A stretch of 55,980 bases of DNA from assembly GCA_028875655.1 (NCBI GenBank), contig JAPPCX010000104.1, forward strand, positions 1-55,980, read 5' to 3'. Position 1 is the stretch's first letter; every line of letters begins with the position of its first letter. The notes under the pieces are model-generated. The model was not told the DNA's origin. It did no database searches and worked only from the letters and a program-made list of their open reading frames with translations. Below, piece by piece: positions 2,042 through 9,129 of this stretch. A program made the position numbers and the translations under genes. This DNA is from Chloroflexota bacterium (lineage in GTDB: Bacteria; Chloroflexota; Dehalococcoidia; Lucifugimonadales; UBA3495).

Positions 2042-2881
<840 letters not shown>

Positions 2882-3388
2882 TTATTCGCCCAACGCGAGC
2901 CGGCTGAAATGTACGATCCGCACGTTCTCGCCTGTTTGCGCGGCCGTCTCCCGCACCAAGTCAGCCAACGTCCGGGAACCGTCCTTGATGAACGGTTGCT
3001 GCAGAAGGCAAACCTGGGCAGCCGGTCGGTCATCGTCTTCTGGCAGGTCATCCTCGCTGAGGTACACCGGGGACATGGCGGCTACCTGCATGGCTATATC
3101 GTGGGCGAGGGCGCGGAACTCATCGGTACGCGCTACAAAGTCGGTTTCGCAGCCCAACTGGACCAAAGCGCCCACGCGCCCGCCGGTGTGGATGTAGGAT
3201 TCGATAAGCCCCTGCGACGTCTCACGGTCGGCTCGTTTGGCAGCCTGCTCAAAGCCTTTCTGCCGCAAGGCTTCAACCGCGCGCTCCAGGTCGCCACCTG
3301 TGTCTTCCAGCGCATTTTTGCAATCACTGATTCCGGCGCCGGTTTGCTCGCGAAGGGATTTGATTAGTTCAACGGTGACCGCAGGCAA
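2882..3388 (-). CDS. tsf: Elongation factor Ts, short form
   Basis: Guanine-nucleotide exchange factor for EF-Tu. The 168 residues contain the N-terminal UBA-like helix pair with the signature TGAGISDCKNALEDTGGD, then the core motif QLGCETDFVARTDEF. The protein stops soon after and so is much shorter than the 280-residue enterobacterial form; short EF-Ts proteins of this size are known from cyanobacteria and Chloroflexi. The start is a TTG at 3388, chosen because a strong GGAGGG site lies nine bases upstream and the family begins with a VELIKSLREQTGAG-like sequence. A hairpin lies between rpsB and this gene. Confidence 0.93.
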   Translation of the reverse strand: MPAVTVELIKSLREQTGAGISDCKNALEDTGGDLERAVEALRQKGFEQAAKRADRETSQGLIESYIHTGGRVGALVQLGCETDFVARTDEFRALAHDIAMQVAAMSPVYLSEDDLPEDDDRPAAQVCLLQQPFIKDGSRTLADLVRETAAQTGENVRIVHFSRLALGE

Positions 3389-3441
3389 GATCAGGCCCTC
3401 CTGGCTGCAATGTATTTTCGGGTTGGTTGGGGTGTTGGCAA

Positions 3442-3465
3442 CGCCTGTCCGGTCGGGGACAGGCG
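3442..3465 (-). promoter_or_regulatory. Hairpin in the rpsB-tsf spacer
   Basis: A perfect 9-bp stem (CGCCTGTCC paired with GGACAGGCG) with a six-base loop lies in the 91-base gap between rpsB and tsf. No T-run follows in the transcribed direction, so it looks more like a processing, stability or partial-attenuation element than a full terminator. In E. coli the rpsB-tsf gap also holds a partial terminator, so a similar role in setting relative expression is a reasonable inference. Confidence 0.45.
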
Positions 3466-3479
3466 CATGAGAAAGCCGA

Positions 3480-4349
3480 CTATTCCAGCGGCCGGGCGGA
3501 CATCATCTGTCCCAGCTCTTCCAGGGTTACGGTCTGTGCGAAGCGCGCAGCCTCTTCCGGGGATTGCTCTTCACCTTCGGCCGGCTCGGCATCGGCGGTC
3601 ATCATGGCTTCGCGCTGCGCCTGGCCTTCTTCGATGGCAGTGGCCATGCGGCCGGTGATCAGGCGTATCGAGCGAACCGCGTCGTCGTTGCCGGGCACGG
3701 CGTGGGAGACCAGACCCGGGTCGCAATCCGTGTCAACGATGGCGAAGATCGGAATGTTCAACCGGCGGGCTTCCGCGATGCAGATGTCCTCTTTGCCAAT
3801 GTCAATTACGAACAGGGCAGCCGGCAGCCGGTCCATGTTGCGCAGGCCGGTGAAATACTTCTCCAGCTTGTCCAGCGTGTGGGTAAGCCGCACCGTTTCC
3901 TTCTTCGGAAGGCGGGCCAGGTAGCCGGAATCACGTTGCTCCTGCAGGCGTTTCATGTGGTCGATGCGCGCCTTGATGGTCTGGAAGTTGGTGAGGGTGC
4001 CTCCCAACCAGCGCTGGTTCACGTACCATTGGTCGGTGCGTTCGGCTTCCGACGCGATGACGTCCTGGGCTTGCTTCTTGGTGCCGACGAACAGGACCTT
4101 TCCGCCGGAGGCCGCCACCTCCACCATCGCCCGGTACGCGTCGTTGATCAGCCCCATCGTTTGCTGCAGGTCGATGATGTGGATGCCGTTCCGCTGCGTG
4201 AAGATGTAGCGCCGCATCCTGGGGTTCCACCGCCTGGTCTGGTGCCCGAAATGCACCCCCGCTTCCAGCAGCGATTTCATTGTGATGGGTTCCAGTGCGG
4301 TTGCAGCACCCGGCTCAACTGCCGCCGGGCGTTCTGGGGCCTGTACCAT
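3480..4349 (-). CDS. rpsB: 30S ribosomal protein S2
   Basis: Small-subunit ribosomal protein S2. The 289 residues include the family opening [20 protein letters not shown] about 25 residues in, [43 protein letters not shown] and the late signature VDTDCDPG. I chose the ATG at 4349: it has a GAGG-containing leader, and the promoter lies 45 bases upstream. Longer readings to 4463 would extend through the promoter. It has a non-conserved N-terminal extension ([14 protein letters not shown]) and an acidic Glu/Ala-rich tail after residue 255. First gene of the translation/lipid cluster, divergent from the amidohydrolase gene. Confidence 0.95.
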
Positions 4350-4507: not shown

Positions 4508-5713
4508 ATGTCCCTGGTACTCACAAATGCCAACCTGATCGACGCCGTCAACCCGAGCGTAGCGACTGACGCAACCGTCGTGATCGAGAATGGCCGCATC
4601 GTTGAAATCGGCGTCGGGCCGTCTTCGTCGTCCGGCGGTAATGCTCAAATGGTTGATCTCAAAGGCGCTTTTCTCGTGCCCGGGCTGTGGGACGTTCACA
4701 TTCATCCCGAGTATCCGGTGCCGCCCGGGACCACGCCGGCGCAGGAAACCGCCAATTTTGGGCGCGCGCTTTCCCTGGCGCTCACCGAGGCCGGCGTCAC
4801 CGGCGTGCGCTGCGGCGGCGCGGCGCATTTTATGGACGTGGCGTGGAGACGAGTCTTTGACGCGGGCGACGTGCCCGGCCCGCGCGTGTTCGCCTGCGGG
4901 CATTTCCTGACCACCACCGGCGGGCACTTCCTGACTTCCGGCCAAGCGCGGGAATGCGACGGCCCTTACGGATTCGTCCAGGCCATACGCGAACAAATCA
5001 AGAACGGCGTTGACCACATCAAGCTCAACCTCACCGGCGGCATCATGGGGCCGGACTGGGATCGCCACTGGCACTCGTTCCTGCTGAAGGAGGAGTTATC
5101 CGCGGCCTTCGCCATCTGCCGGCAGCGGGAGTTTCCGGTGATGGCCCACGCCGCGAACCCCGACGCGGTCAAGTCGGCGCTGAAGCTGGGCGCCCATACC
5201 GTCGAGCACGGCTACATCATGGACGAGGAGTGCATCGCTACCCTGTCGGAATCACCGACGTGGTACGTGCCCACGCTGGCGATTTCTCACCTGACCGAGG
5301 GGCAGGCGCAGAACGAGTACGAAAGGCAATGGCTAGCGCAACGCAATATCGCCGCCGAGTTGCAGTGCCGCGCCGATGCAGCCGCCGACGAGCACGCCCA
5401 CTGGTTCAAGCGCGCCCTGGACTCAGGCGCGAAAATGGCCCTGGGTTCGGACATACGCCCGCTCAAAGACGCCGCCTTGTTGGAAATGGGCCTATGGGTG
5501 CGCGACGGCGCAACCACTTGGCAAACGCTACAGGCCGCCACGCGCAACGCCGCCGAGCTGTGCGGTGTCGGCAATCAGTTGGGGACAGTTGAGGTCGGAA
5601 AACTGGCCGATTTGATTGTGGTGGGCGCTAACCCGCTGGACGACATTAACAACCTGCGGCAACTGCAACTGGTTATCAAGGGCGGGCGGATAGTTTCGGA
5701 CAAGCGTGGGTGA
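4508..5713 (+). CDS. Metal-dependent amidohydrolase
   Basis: Amidohydrolase-superfamily enzyme of 401 residues, closest in pattern to the prolidase/imidazolonepropionase-like group that hydrolyses cyclic amides or dipeptides. Motifs in order: a small N-terminal beta domain ([12 protein letters not shown]), the metal site [11 protein letters not shown], a candidate carbamylated lysine in [12 protein letters not shown], metal histidines in VMAHAAN and HTVEHG, the catalytic Asp in ALGSDIRP, and the C-terminal [13 protein letters not shown]. No signal peptide. The ATG at 4508 has GGAGG upstream; a TATAAT at 4447-4452 may be its -10 box, although no convincing -35 precedes it. Substrate not deducible. 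Confidence 0.85.
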
Positions 5714-5729
5714 TGACGAATATCCCACG

Positions 5730-6899
5730 CTAGTCATCGGCGGATGCTGCCTCAATTTGGTGGCCGCTGGCTTCCAGGTAAAGGTCGCGGATGGCCGCCA
5801 GGATTGGATCCAATTCGGATTCCTTTATTCTCGACAATCTCCGGTGTCGGACCCCGCTGCTTGACTTGACCTCGCCGATCAGGCCGTCAATTTCAGCTAG
5901 CGCATTGAGAGACAAACCGCCCTCGGAAGGCAAAAAGCTTATCTCTCCGCCACGTTCTTTACCGCTCTTCAAAAGGTTGTTGAACGATACCAAATTTTGG
6001 GCTGTACCCGGCACCGTGAGGTCGATCTTGTAAAAATCACCTTTGCGGCTGATATATGTGGACAGTTCGACGATCCTTTCCTGTTCCATCTGCATTGCCG
6101 TAACATAGAGTCGCTCCAACCCCGGTTGGAATTTTTCAGGGGCACGTCCGATACTCTCCTTGAAAGCGTCAGCCCCCTGAACGATTTGTACCTTCCCTGA
6201 ACTCACTGACCTTGCTTCCTGTTCCCGTTGTCCGAGTTGTGTTTGGTAGTCGGAAGCTTCCGGAAGGGGAATTACCACGCTTGCTTCGATCAAGATCTCA
6301 CCGCCATTCTTATGCGGCTGTAGCCGAACGCACTTGATCTCCTGTTTCGCGTTCCTCAGCCAAGAATCGTTCAGCCACAGTACGCACGTGGTCAATTCCT
6401 TACCGAAATCCTCTGAAGCCAAAATGATGCGGGGTATTGCAGTATCAATGGCTTGGTTATCGAGTTCCGCGATTTTCAAGTGTTCCCGGAGGTATGATTC
6501 CGAATCGCCTTCTTCGACAGGGCCGCGGTCTGGTTCATTGTCCGCTCGCTTTTCGAGGTATTTTTGATAGGCGTCCGTCACATCATCCAAACCCATGTTG
6601 GCGACCATCGCAGCGTACCGAATCGCCTGCAAATCCATTTGCTCGCCGGTATACCCTCGTTTCAACTCGATCACGACCAGGCGGCCTGCGGCGTCCAAGC
6701 CCAGCAGGTCGATTCGGCGTTTGGCATCCTGCCAGTTGCCGAATTCCTCTGAGATGATAAGCAGCTCATCCTCCAGCACTTCAGGCCGGTCACGCAGCAT
6801 ACGCTGTAACTCCCGTTCCCAAACGTCTTCCTGGCCTAACGATGTCGTATCAACCTTGACCAACTTTTCGTTATTCCCTTTGATTTTGTAGATGGCCAT
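5730..6899 (-). CDS. PD-(D/E)XK nuclease domain protein, NucS/DUF91-like
   Basis: Protein of 389 residues whose first third looks like a restriction-endonuclease-fold domain. VWERELQRMLRDRPEVL is followed by RIDLLGLDAAGRLVVIELKR, giving the catalytic triad pattern Asp64...Glu78-X-Lys80, and then QAIRYAAMVANMGLD. This matches the DUF91/NucS-like nuclease family. The rest (100-389) is a hydrophilic alpha/beta region I do not recognise. The ATG at 6899 has AGGAGAA eight bases upstream. It is 16 bases behind the duplicated 181-residue gene, which overlaps a DUF4258 gene, so the three probably form one operon. DNA repair or defence is plausible but unproven. Confidence 0.72.
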   Translation of the reverse strand: MAIYKIKGNNEKLVKVDTTSLGQEDVWERELQRMLRDRPEVLEDELLIISEEFGNWQDAKRRIDLLGLDAAGRLVVIELKRGYTGEQMDLQAIRYAAMVANMGLDDVTDAYQKYLEKRADNEPDRGPVEEGDSESYLREHLKIAELDNQAIDTAIPRIILASEDFGKELTTCVLWLNDSWLRNAKQEIKCVRLQPHKNGGEILIEASVVIPLPEASDYQTQLGQREQEARSVSSGKVQIVQGADAFKESIGRAPEKFQPGLERLYVTAMQMEQERIVELSTYISRKGDFYKIDLTVPGTAQNLVSFNNLLKSGKERGGEISFLPSEGGLSLNALAEIDGLIGEVKSSSGVRHRRLSRIKESELDPILAAIRDLYLEASGHQIEAASADD

Positions 6900-6915
6900 A
6901 CTGGTTCTCCTGGTG

Positions 6916-7461
6916 TCATCCTGTTGACTGCGGGGCCGTCGGTGTCTTCCGCCGCCCGGCTCCTTTCCGGGAAGGCTGCCAGGGCTCCACAACCGGCGTA
7001 ACGTCCACTGGCTCCAGGCGATAGACCTTGCCATACTGCGCGGCGGTTTCCAGATCCTCGGTTTCCAGGGCGGCACGAGCGGCGTCGAGGCGTTCGCAGT
7101 CGGGAAGGGATACGCTGGCGGCCCATGGTGAACCAATGCCCTTGAGCTCGGTCTGCACCTCTACGGCGTAGCCGTTGGCCTCCCGCATACGGGTGCGGTA
7201 ACGGTCATAGCGCGGGACCGTTCTGCCTCCTTTGGGCGTGATGTCCAGGGGGATCACCCGATACAAGTCGCCGTGAGAGGCGGCCACTTCCAGATAGCCG
7301 CGGTCAATGGCATCCCTAAAGTCCTCAACCCGGTCCAAGTCGAATATCAGAATATACGGAAAAGGACATTCGTTAGGGTCAGGGATACGCATCTCCATAT
7401 TCAAGGCATATCCCTTGTAGTAGATCACACGGGAAAAATACTCGAAATCGGTGAAGTTCAT
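6916..7461 (-). CDS. Hypothetical protein with internal 60-residue duplication
   Basis: I do not recognise this 181-residue protein. It consists of two similar halves, about residues 17-76 and 96-156. Each starts with GYA(L/V) and ends with a shared block: LEVAASHGDLYRVIPLDITP in the first, LETAAQYGKVYRLEPVDVTP in the second. The tail (157-181) is basic and Pro-rich. No signal peptide or membrane segment. Its start overlaps the DUF4258 stop (ATGA, 7461-7458), and the nuclease gene follows 16 bases after its stop, so it is probably a partner in that cassette. Confidence 0.65.
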   Translation of the reverse strand: MNFTDFEYFSRVIYYKGYALNMEMRIPDPNECPFPYILIFDLDRVEDFRDAIDRGYLEVAASHGDLYRVIPLDITPKGGRTVPRYDRYRTRMREANGYAVEVQTELKGIGSPWAASVSLPDCERLDAARAALETEDLETAAQYGKVYRLEPVDVTPVVEPWQPSRKGAGRRKTPTAPQSTG

Positions 7462-7772
7462 CGCTGCCTCCGGGTCATCAAATCAGGTTCCCAGCGGTCC
7501 AGGCCGGGGTAGTACGCGGTAATAACCAGCGCGTCGCCGGTGTCAGCATCAAACCCCCAGATTACGTGAACCGGCGTTCCACCGCTGTCCCGCTGCAATA
7601 ATAACACTGCGGGTCGTTCGCCAGGGTCATTGTACAATTCCACTACTATCGCCTCGCCAAGTCCGTGAACGAGGTCAGCGTTCTGGATCCCGCGCTGGTC
7701 GCGGCGTATTCGCCCATGCTCGCTAGGATCCCACCGCCCGGCGGCGACCAGCGCCTGTATCCGTTCCAGCAG
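7458..7772 (-). CDS. DUF4258 domain protein, start uncertain
   Basis: The frame is open from just after the stop of the upstream cyclase gene and encodes a recognisable DUF4258 protein. It shows a His-Gly..Arg segment (SEHGRIRRDQRGIQ), DLVHGLGEAIVVELYNDP, a hydrophobic LLLQRDSGGTPVHVIWG, and VITAYYPGLDRWEPDL. DUF4258 proteins are small, with a BECR/RelE-like fold, and are sometimes toxin-like. No ATG exists in the conserved part: the candidates are CTG at 7772 or 7769, or a GTG at 7643 that would cut off half the domain. I annotate from 7772, but the gene may have lost its start. It overlaps the next gene by four bases. Confidence 0.55.
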   Translation of the reverse strand: MLERIQALVAAGRWDPSEHGRIRRDQRGIQNADLVHGLGEAIVVELYNDPGERPAVLLLQRDSGGTPVHVIWGFDADTGDALVITAYYPGLDRWEPDLMTRRQR

Positions 7773-7805
7773 AGTAGGAATCGCGGTCGCCGCCGGACCG
7801 TAGCG

Positions 7806-8726
7806 TTACAGTATCGCTACCGGGTTGACGGGGGAGCCGGTGCCTCCCACCACGCGCAGGGGATTGATGGTGAGCATGAATTCCCAGCGTCCAGCCGCCT
7901 CGCACGCCTCTGCCAGCGGTTGCAACAAGGCGTTGTCCAAGAGGCCGATGCCGTAGGCGAAGATGCTGCCGTGCACTGCCCAAGGCAGATCGTAGCCGTT
8001 GGGAGTGTGGTCCATCATGTCCCACACCAGCACACAGCAATCGCTCTGGCGAATGAACTTCAGGGTCGATACGTGCAGGCCCGGCCTGAGCGCCGCGTCG
8101 CTGCCCCAGATCGGGTTGCCGTCTGCGTTCCACTTTTCGCGGCCACCGTACACCACCAGGGCGTCGCCGGGCTCCATCTGCACGCCTTGCGCATCGCAGA
8201 TTTCCTGCAACTCCCAGCCATGGATAGGCGTTTCCTGCGTAACGTAGTCGGTGCCTCGATGCCTCGGGACGTCCAGCAGCACGCCGCGCGTGATGATGCC
8301 TTCCTTCCAGTGTTCCACCGACCCGTACTTGGCGCCGTCGAACTGGATCATCTCGTTCGGGTCCTTGCCGTTCCACATCCCGTTGTGGTCCCACACGTGG
8401 CAGAGCGCGTCCAGGTGTGTGGTGGCCGTGCCGTGGTAGGAGATGCCGTAGTAGTCGGTGGACATACCGCCGCCGGGCTCGCGGGGGCCTTTGCGCATGT
8501 AGTGTATGGCCGGCGTGGGGTTATTCGGAGCCGGCGTTACGGGAAATTCACGGCTCAGCGAAACCGCCTGCCCGCTTTTTATCAGGCCGGCGGCCCGAAG
8601 CCGCTTAGCGTCGTCAACCAGGTTAACCGCGCCCTTCTGGTCGTCCGGACCCCAGCGGCCCCAGTTCACATCATCCTTCAGGTAGCCCAGGACTTCTTCC
8701 TTGCTGGGCACTTGGTAGGTGGTCAT
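7806..8726 (-). CDS. Cyclase family / kynurenine-formamidase-like hydrolase
   Basis: A 306-residue member of the metal-dependent cyclase family (PF04199), which hydrolyses formamides, cyclic imides or related amides. The diagnostic metal motif appears as YHGTATTHLDALCH, with two histidines, an aspartate and a further histidine, around residues 105-120. Later blocks GVLLDVPRHRG, GDALVVYGGREKW and WDMMDHTPNG fit the fold. I chose the ATG at 8726, which has GGAGGGACA about ten bases upstream; an upstream extension to 8771 is not conserved. No signal peptide. Substrate cannot be told; neighbours (TenA, M20 amidohydrolase) also act on C-N bonds. Confidence 0.83.
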   Translation of the reverse strand: MTTYQVPSKEEVLGYLKDDVNWGRWGPDDQKGAVNLVDDAKRLRAAGLIKSGQAVSLSREFPVTPAPNNPTPAIHYMRKGPREPGGGMSTDYYGISYHGTATTHLDALCHVWDHNGMWNGKDPNEMIQFDGAKYGSVEHWKEGIITRGVLLDVPRHRGTDYVTQETPIHGWELQEICDAQGVQMEPGDALVVYGGREKWNADGNPIWGSDAALRPGLHVSTLKFIRQSDCCVLVWDMMDHTPNGYDLPWAVHGSIFAYGIGLLDNALLQPLAEACEAAGRWEFMLTINPLRVVGGTGSPVNPVAIL

Positions 8727-8826
8727 GTCTTGTCCCTCCGGCGCAAGTTGCGCTGGAGGCAAGGTTGCCACGCGCCGATGGCAATGACAAGGGGCGCAGC
8801 GAGCGAGTCGCCGGCGCGGGAACGGA

Positions 8827-9129
8827 TTACTCCTGCGCTTTCAGCAGCCTTTGATATTCTCGTTCTTCCAGCCGCCGGAGCAATGCCTTCCCTCCGGCCG
8901 GTGCGAATACGCCGCAGCCGTGAGCCACCAGTCCAATCCCCCAACCGAACAGTCCCCAATAGAACCACCAGCCTGGCCCGGTTAGCGCGTCAATCACCAG
9001 CAACAGCAAGTTCACCACCAGAAACACTACGGCGTGGGAGTAGAAGGACATTTTGACTTTAGCCCGTTGACTGGCCTGCCGCCTCAGCTCGGTTTCATTG
9101 CCGATGTCATTGTTGGTTTCTGCCGCCAT
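8827..9129 (-). CDS. 2TM-domain membrane protein
   Basis: Small protein (100 residues) with a polar N-terminus, two hydrophobic segments (SHAVVFLVVNLLLLVIDAL and WWFYWGLFGWGIGLVAHGCG) and a charged C-terminal tail rich in Arg/Glu. This matches the 2TM-domain family of unknown function, often found alone or fused to sensor histidine kinases. The ATG at 9129 is preceded by AGGAAA. It follows tenA by 21 bases on the same strand, so co-transcription is likely. Confidence 0.7.
   Translation of the reverse strand: MAAETNNDIGNETELRRQASQRAKVKMSFYSHAVVFLVVNLLLLVIDALTGPGWWFYWGLFGWGIGLVAHGCGVFAPAGGKALLRRLEEREYQRLLKAQE

Follow-up and report, generated by a model that had tools for sequence, protein, structure and literature searches.

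A DUF4258 gene and a tandemly duplicated module gene as a probable toxin-antitoxin pair in Chloroflexota

In the window, by which we mean the whole 55,980-nucleotide stretch of Chloroflexota DNA that was analysed (contig JAPPCX010000104.1 of assembly GCA_028875655.1), a DUF4258 gene and the gene for the middle protein of a three-gene cluster, here called MID, probably form a type II toxin-antitoxin pair; in it, an undescribed module that is duplicated in one genus would stand in place of an MqsA-type antitoxin. A first-pass annotation of the sequence had considered that these two genes and an adjoining PD-(D/E)XK nuclease gene could be a toxin-antitoxin-like or defence system. The toxin-antitoxin part of that proposal is supported for DUF4258 and MID: DUF4258 and either MID or its single-module relative occur in the same order and with the same overlap across Chloroflexota, with the module at the position of MqsA-type antitoxins. 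For the nuclease it is not supported. If an unrelated-looking partner holds the place of the MqsA-type antitoxin, the pair would offer a clean example of antitoxin replacement, and this in DUF4258, a large toxin family of unknown activity. In the under-studied Chloroflexota, the module would also supply a new profile with which to search for such pairs.

Gene arrangement at the locus

The features of the locus are listed below in the order of their coordinates.

4508..5713, plus strand: amidohydrolase gene (PF01979), convergent, one border of the slot
6899-5730, minus strand: PD-(D/E)XK nuclease gene, 389 aa, ATG start, matching the PADLOC candidate PDC-S11
6900-6915: gap of 16 bases between MID and the nuclease
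7461-6916, minus strand: MID, 181 aa, predicted antitoxin built of a tandemly duplicated module
7000..7203, minus strand: MID module 2, closer to the single-module proteins (101.5 bits with profile A1, which contains module 2)
7240..7455, minus strand: MID module 1, the more diverged copy (104 bits with profile A1, which contains module 1)
7458..7461, minus strand: ATGA overlap of 4 bases between the DUF4258 stop and the MID start
7458..7781, minus strand: DUF4258 gene (PF14076), predicted BECR-fold (RelE/MqsR-like) toxin, probable ATT start
7806..8726, minus strand: cyclase gene (PF04199), second border of the slot, lying upstream of DUF4258 at 24 bases from its start

The three genes, their four-base overlap and the 16-base gap were all confirmed as first described, with all three genes on the minus strand. 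In other families too, DUF4258 and the module gene of intact single-module pairs are joined by this ATGA overlap, which would link translation of the antitoxin to translation of the toxin. The internal duplication of MID was likewise verified: local alignment of one half with the other gave a BLOSUM score of 88, far above 2,000 shuffles (mean 23, sd 4, maximum 52), and the motif L-E-x-A-A-x-x-G-x-x-Y-R-x-x-P-x-D-x-T-P, which had been read from the protein, is found in both halves, as LEVAASHGDLYRVIPLDITP and LETAAQYGKVYRLEPVDVTP. Furthermore, a profile made of single-module relatives only (A5) finds both halves, module 2 with 45.9 bits and module 1 with 16.7 bits.

The start of the DUF4258 gene had to be revised. 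A CTG start had been assigned to it. Three codons further upstream, at 7781-7779, the window reads ATT where the relatives have their ATG or GTG, and the frame in the window contains no usable ATG, GTG or TTG. Because the relatives start with ATG or GTG at the position that aligns with the ATT, the true start is probably this ATT at 7781, or else translation is weak; the copy either begins at a rare codon or no longer has its usual start. With ATT at 7779-7781, the toxin allele of the window may be weakened. A copy without a standard start may be weakly expressed, which counts against the reading as a toxin-antitoxin pair.

The DUF4258 protein and its downstream partners

The DUF4258 protein scored 44.4 bits against PF14076, where the cut-off is 25, and its invariant residues include H22, Y50, Q63, H72, Y90 and R104. 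In the predicted model (pLDDT 87), the secondary structure elements follow one another as helix-strand-helix-helix-four strands. Among solved structures, MqsR matched it best (Z 8.4, rmsd 2.8 over 83 residues, 13% identity in the structural alignment), followed by BrnT (Z 6.8) and then many HigB, RelE and YoeB toxins; most of the remaining matches above Z 5 were toxins of the RelE/HigB/YoeB type, as for a BECR/RelE-like fold. Foldseek matches to the model were weak (best E 0.009), and this counts against the pair reading, as does the finding that MID has no recognised DNA-binding (HTH) domain. From family and position, we infer that DUF4258 encodes an RNase toxin that belongs to the RelE/ParE (BECR) superfamily, has a predicted fold closest to that of MqsR and would act by cleaving RNA. 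DUF4258 is listed as a BECR toxin family of unknown activity in a 2025 survey, in which DUF4258-MqsA fusions are also reported (PMC11980606), and in a survey of E. coli the partners of DUF4258 were strictly downstream (PMC10790755).

Over 395 genomes, the DUF4258 profile gave a clean score gap, with values either above 150 bits or below 75 bits. All 30 DUF4258 loci that were fetched carry a same-strand downstream partner, which is a relative of the MqsA-like zinc finger in 24 and the module in 6; no locus has both, and none has neither. The partners follow the score gap, since all six high scorers (>150 bits) are found with the module and all 24 low scorers (<75 bits) with the zinc finger. Some of these 30 loci supplied the sequences for the zinc-finger profile, but others that did not contribute to it match as well, such as L085 (74.9 bits) and L091 (78.8 bits). 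In addition, the Pfam MqsA_antitoxin model finds four of the five zinc-finger partners scanned, one above the cut-off and three below it. The zinc-finger genes mostly overlap DUF4258 or lie within 31 bases of it, with an ATGA overlap in many loci, and the module is located directly downstream of DUF4258, at the position of the MqsA/YgiT antitoxin. At the 30 loci the module is found where the MqsA-like antitoxin otherwise sits and never together with it, and it therefore takes the place of the known antitoxin, as a substitute from an unnamed family. We consider this exclusivity of partners the strongest evidence for the module as an antitoxin. At three loci (L089, L092 and L099), the partners of DUF4258 resemble MqsA zinc-finger proteins but lack the cysteines; zinc-free antitoxins of the MqsA line may exist too.

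The pair can be set beside three known systems. DUF4258 with an MqsA/YgiT-type zinc finger shares with it the toxin family, the order of toxin then antitoxin, the small downstream partner and, in many loci, the ATGA overlap; MID, in contrast, has neither zinc-finger cysteines nor a detectable sequence relation to MqsA, and is duplicated in the genus. MqsR-MqsA likewise has the toxin gene first, and no solved structure matches the DUF4258 model better than MqsR, whereas DUF4258 is a separate Pfam family and MID carries no MqsA zinc domain or recognised HTH domain. In Synechocystis, slr1421/ssr2377 combines DUF4258 with a HicB-like partner (PMC4963859) and resembles our pair in that DUF4258 is joined to a small protein other than MqsA. 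The order there, however, is antitoxin-toxin, and the module has no HicB match in Pfam.

The duplicated module and its distribution

The first-pass annotation could not assign the module to a family, and this was borne out by searches of Pfam, NCBIfam, PHROGs and PADLOC, none of which gave a match. Neither MID nor the single-module proteins matched the MqsA profile PF15731. With respect to the zinc ligands of MqsA/YgiT, MID contains no CxxC motif and the single-module proteins in A5 have no conserved cysteine. Two candidate identities were rejected, namely a degenerate MqsA zinc finger, for which profile-profile comparison with hhalign gave no support (probability 0.7%), and a HicB-like protein, for which Pfam gave no HicB match at E up to 0.5. 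The predicted model of MID (pLDDT 82) consists of two copies of strand-strand-helix-helix-strand; searched as one model with both modules together, it had no match of note in Foldseek or VIA-align (best Z 3.2), a result that does not by itself prove a new fold.

As the predicted antitoxin, MID would use its two copies of the ~65-residue module to bind and block the DUF4258 toxin. Covariation with DUF4258 over 8 sequences gave r values of 0.70 for module 1 and 0.74 for module 2; both modules correlate, and the toxin-contacting module is therefore not distinguished. We tentatively suggest, as a possibility that stops short of being probable, that the module is a new antitoxin family, possibly with an unseen fold, which replaced the MqsA-type antitoxin, and that in the genus it forms a single-chain pseudo-dimer whose copies could divide the labour, one holding the toxin and the other serving, for example, in regulation. 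The natural duplication lets one ask which half of MID neutralises the toxin.

With the module profile, the module was found in 9 of 400 genomes of the phylum, in 7 of 294 genomes of the window's class and in 2 of 158 genomes of another class, where the phylum and class draws overlap and the genome searches were centred on Chloroflexota. This patchy distribution resembles that of toxin-antitoxin elements. Outside the genus, the module occurs mostly in single-module proteins of 69-72 aa, encoded in most loci directly after a DUF4258 gene that is either intact or frameshifted. The single-module protein is the form in most Chloroflexota that have the module, and the tandem duplication the form in the window's genus. 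Small, overlapping and co-directional DUF4258 and module genes are conserved together, as in a type II pair. Searches of plasmids, phages and viral contigs with the module, MID and the single-module DUF4258 subfamily found nothing, and therefore no mobile carrier was seen.

Twenty-five module loci were studied in detail. Both genes are intact in 14 of them, the module is intact beside a frameshifted DUF4258 in four (L055, L056, L059 and L066), an intact module occurs without DUF4258 in two (L048 and L049), and at the remaining loci the module is damaged too. The DUF4258 frameshift of L066 seems to involve a short duplicated stretch, DEYPP. Some of the frameshifts may be assembly errors, several of them coming from metagenome-assembled genomes. 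The decay pattern, in which the module stays intact where DUF4258 is frameshifted or absent and no partnerless DUF4258 occurs among the 30 loci, counts for a toxin-antitoxin pair. The four frameshifted genes beside intact modules would also suit an explanation in which MID is an orphan protective (anti-toxin) gene and the window DUF4258 is a decaying, inactive relic, and so would the change of its start from ATG to ATT. We consider this very unlikely, as the window DUF4258 has retained all invariant alignment columns, with a dN/dS of 0.10 against the copy of L063.

The slot between the cyclase and amidohydrolase genes

The family was surveyed in 49 genomes. Of the 13 that belong to the window's genus, 7 carry MID, and a different genus contributed one single-module relative. 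Every copy of the pair that was checked in the genus sits between the same cyclase and amidohydrolase genes, adjoining rpsB where this is visible. At six of these loci (L014, L015, L017, L018, L063 and L065), the end of the amidohydrolase gene lies ~10-50 bases from MID, so that no nuclease is present there. In L016 there are two tandem paralogous pairs, and behind them an insert of 1.7 kb (6592-8191) that contains a membrane-protein frame. The slot was also inspected in six members of the genus without the pair, in one of which the cyclase was not found. It is empty after the cyclase in L069 and L072, is occupied by the nuclease alone in L071 (311-1435; 63% identical over 380 residues), and contains a GIY-YIG gene in L070 (672-1424) and a GIY-YIG gene (2765-3529) plus a remnant of the pair in L073. 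The gap between cyclase and amidohydrolase is a small variable slot in the genus, holding the nuclease, a GIY-YIG gene, a membrane-protein frame, one or two pairs, or nothing. It shows how unrelated small accessory genes that collect at one spot can be mistaken for a single system.

The nuclease of the window matches the PADLOC phage-defence candidate family PDC-S11 (E 1.7e-80, residues 1-237). This likeness concerns the neighbouring nuclease only, PDC-S11 being a stand-alone gene and not the pair. The core is a NucS-C-like PD-(D/E)XK domain in which the D-(13)-ExK motif is kept, and D64, E78 and K80 are conserved in all seven relatives aligned. The match to a phage-defence candidate family, the shared strand and the 16-base gap would be compatible with a three-gene defence system, with the nuclease as effector under the control or guard of the DUF4258/MID pair. 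However, the suggested conserved trio was not supported by the comparison: the window is the one place where nuclease and pair are neighbours, no other examined locus combines all three genes, and the nuclease otherwise occurs by itself in the L071 slot or scattered, with no pair beside it. The six loci listed above contain the pair alone, and the closest other relatives of the nuclease, found elsewhere in the class (L020-L025), have no conserved companion gene. Moreover, the G+C content of the nuclease is 52.5%, compared with about 60% for the pair (59-61%) and 62.0% for the window. On these gene neighbourhoods the trio as a unit is rejected, and a three-gene defence system is the least likely of the alternatives, with hardly any probability left to it. 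Because six other genomes of the genus have the pair with no nuclease beside it and L071 has the nuclease alone, nuclease and pair are independent occupants of one variable slot. The nuclease is a separate, probably recently acquired defence-candidate gene, and its low G+C content fits such a separate and recent arrival.

The pair also has to be judged against its neighbours in the slot. DUF4258 and MID are under purifying selection yet evolve faster than the neighbouring genes. Their dN/dS values are 0.07-0.32 for DUF4258, where the window copy gives 0.10-0.32 against relatives, and 0.11-0.26 for MID, whereas the cyclase has 0.03-0.06 and the amidohydrolase 0.07-0.12. No promoter of the sigma-70 type was found in 5600-8850. 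Because no promoter was found and the pair starts 24 bases after the cyclase gene, it may be transcribed together with the cyclase in the genus. Such dependence would be unusual for a self-regulating toxin-antitoxin operon and would count against the pair reading. An alternative is that DUF4258 and MID form a non-toxic regulatory or RNA-processing complex, perhaps domesticated and tied to the cyclase transcript; the fixed position a few tens of bases behind the cyclase, the purifying selection, the lack of a detected promoter and the non-standard start codon of the window copy all point in this direction. Nevertheless, we regard a non-toxic complex as unlikely. Its occurrence is patchy, with 2 of 158 genomes of one class; together with the empty slots, the deletion remnant, the tandem paralogous pairs of L016 and the fast evolution, this is the pattern of toxin-antitoxin elements rather than of housekeeping genes.

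Two observations concern the recent history of the pair. In the window, 6919-7781 is a mosaic, in which module 1 has 94% DNA identity to L014, while DUF4258 has 77% to L014 and 85% to L063; this suggests recombination inside the pair. The DUF4258 relative in L063, which has an ATG start, is 86% identical. In L073, the remnant at 2442-2598 consists of the first 27 residues of DUF4258 fused to the last 20 of MID via an internal deletion.
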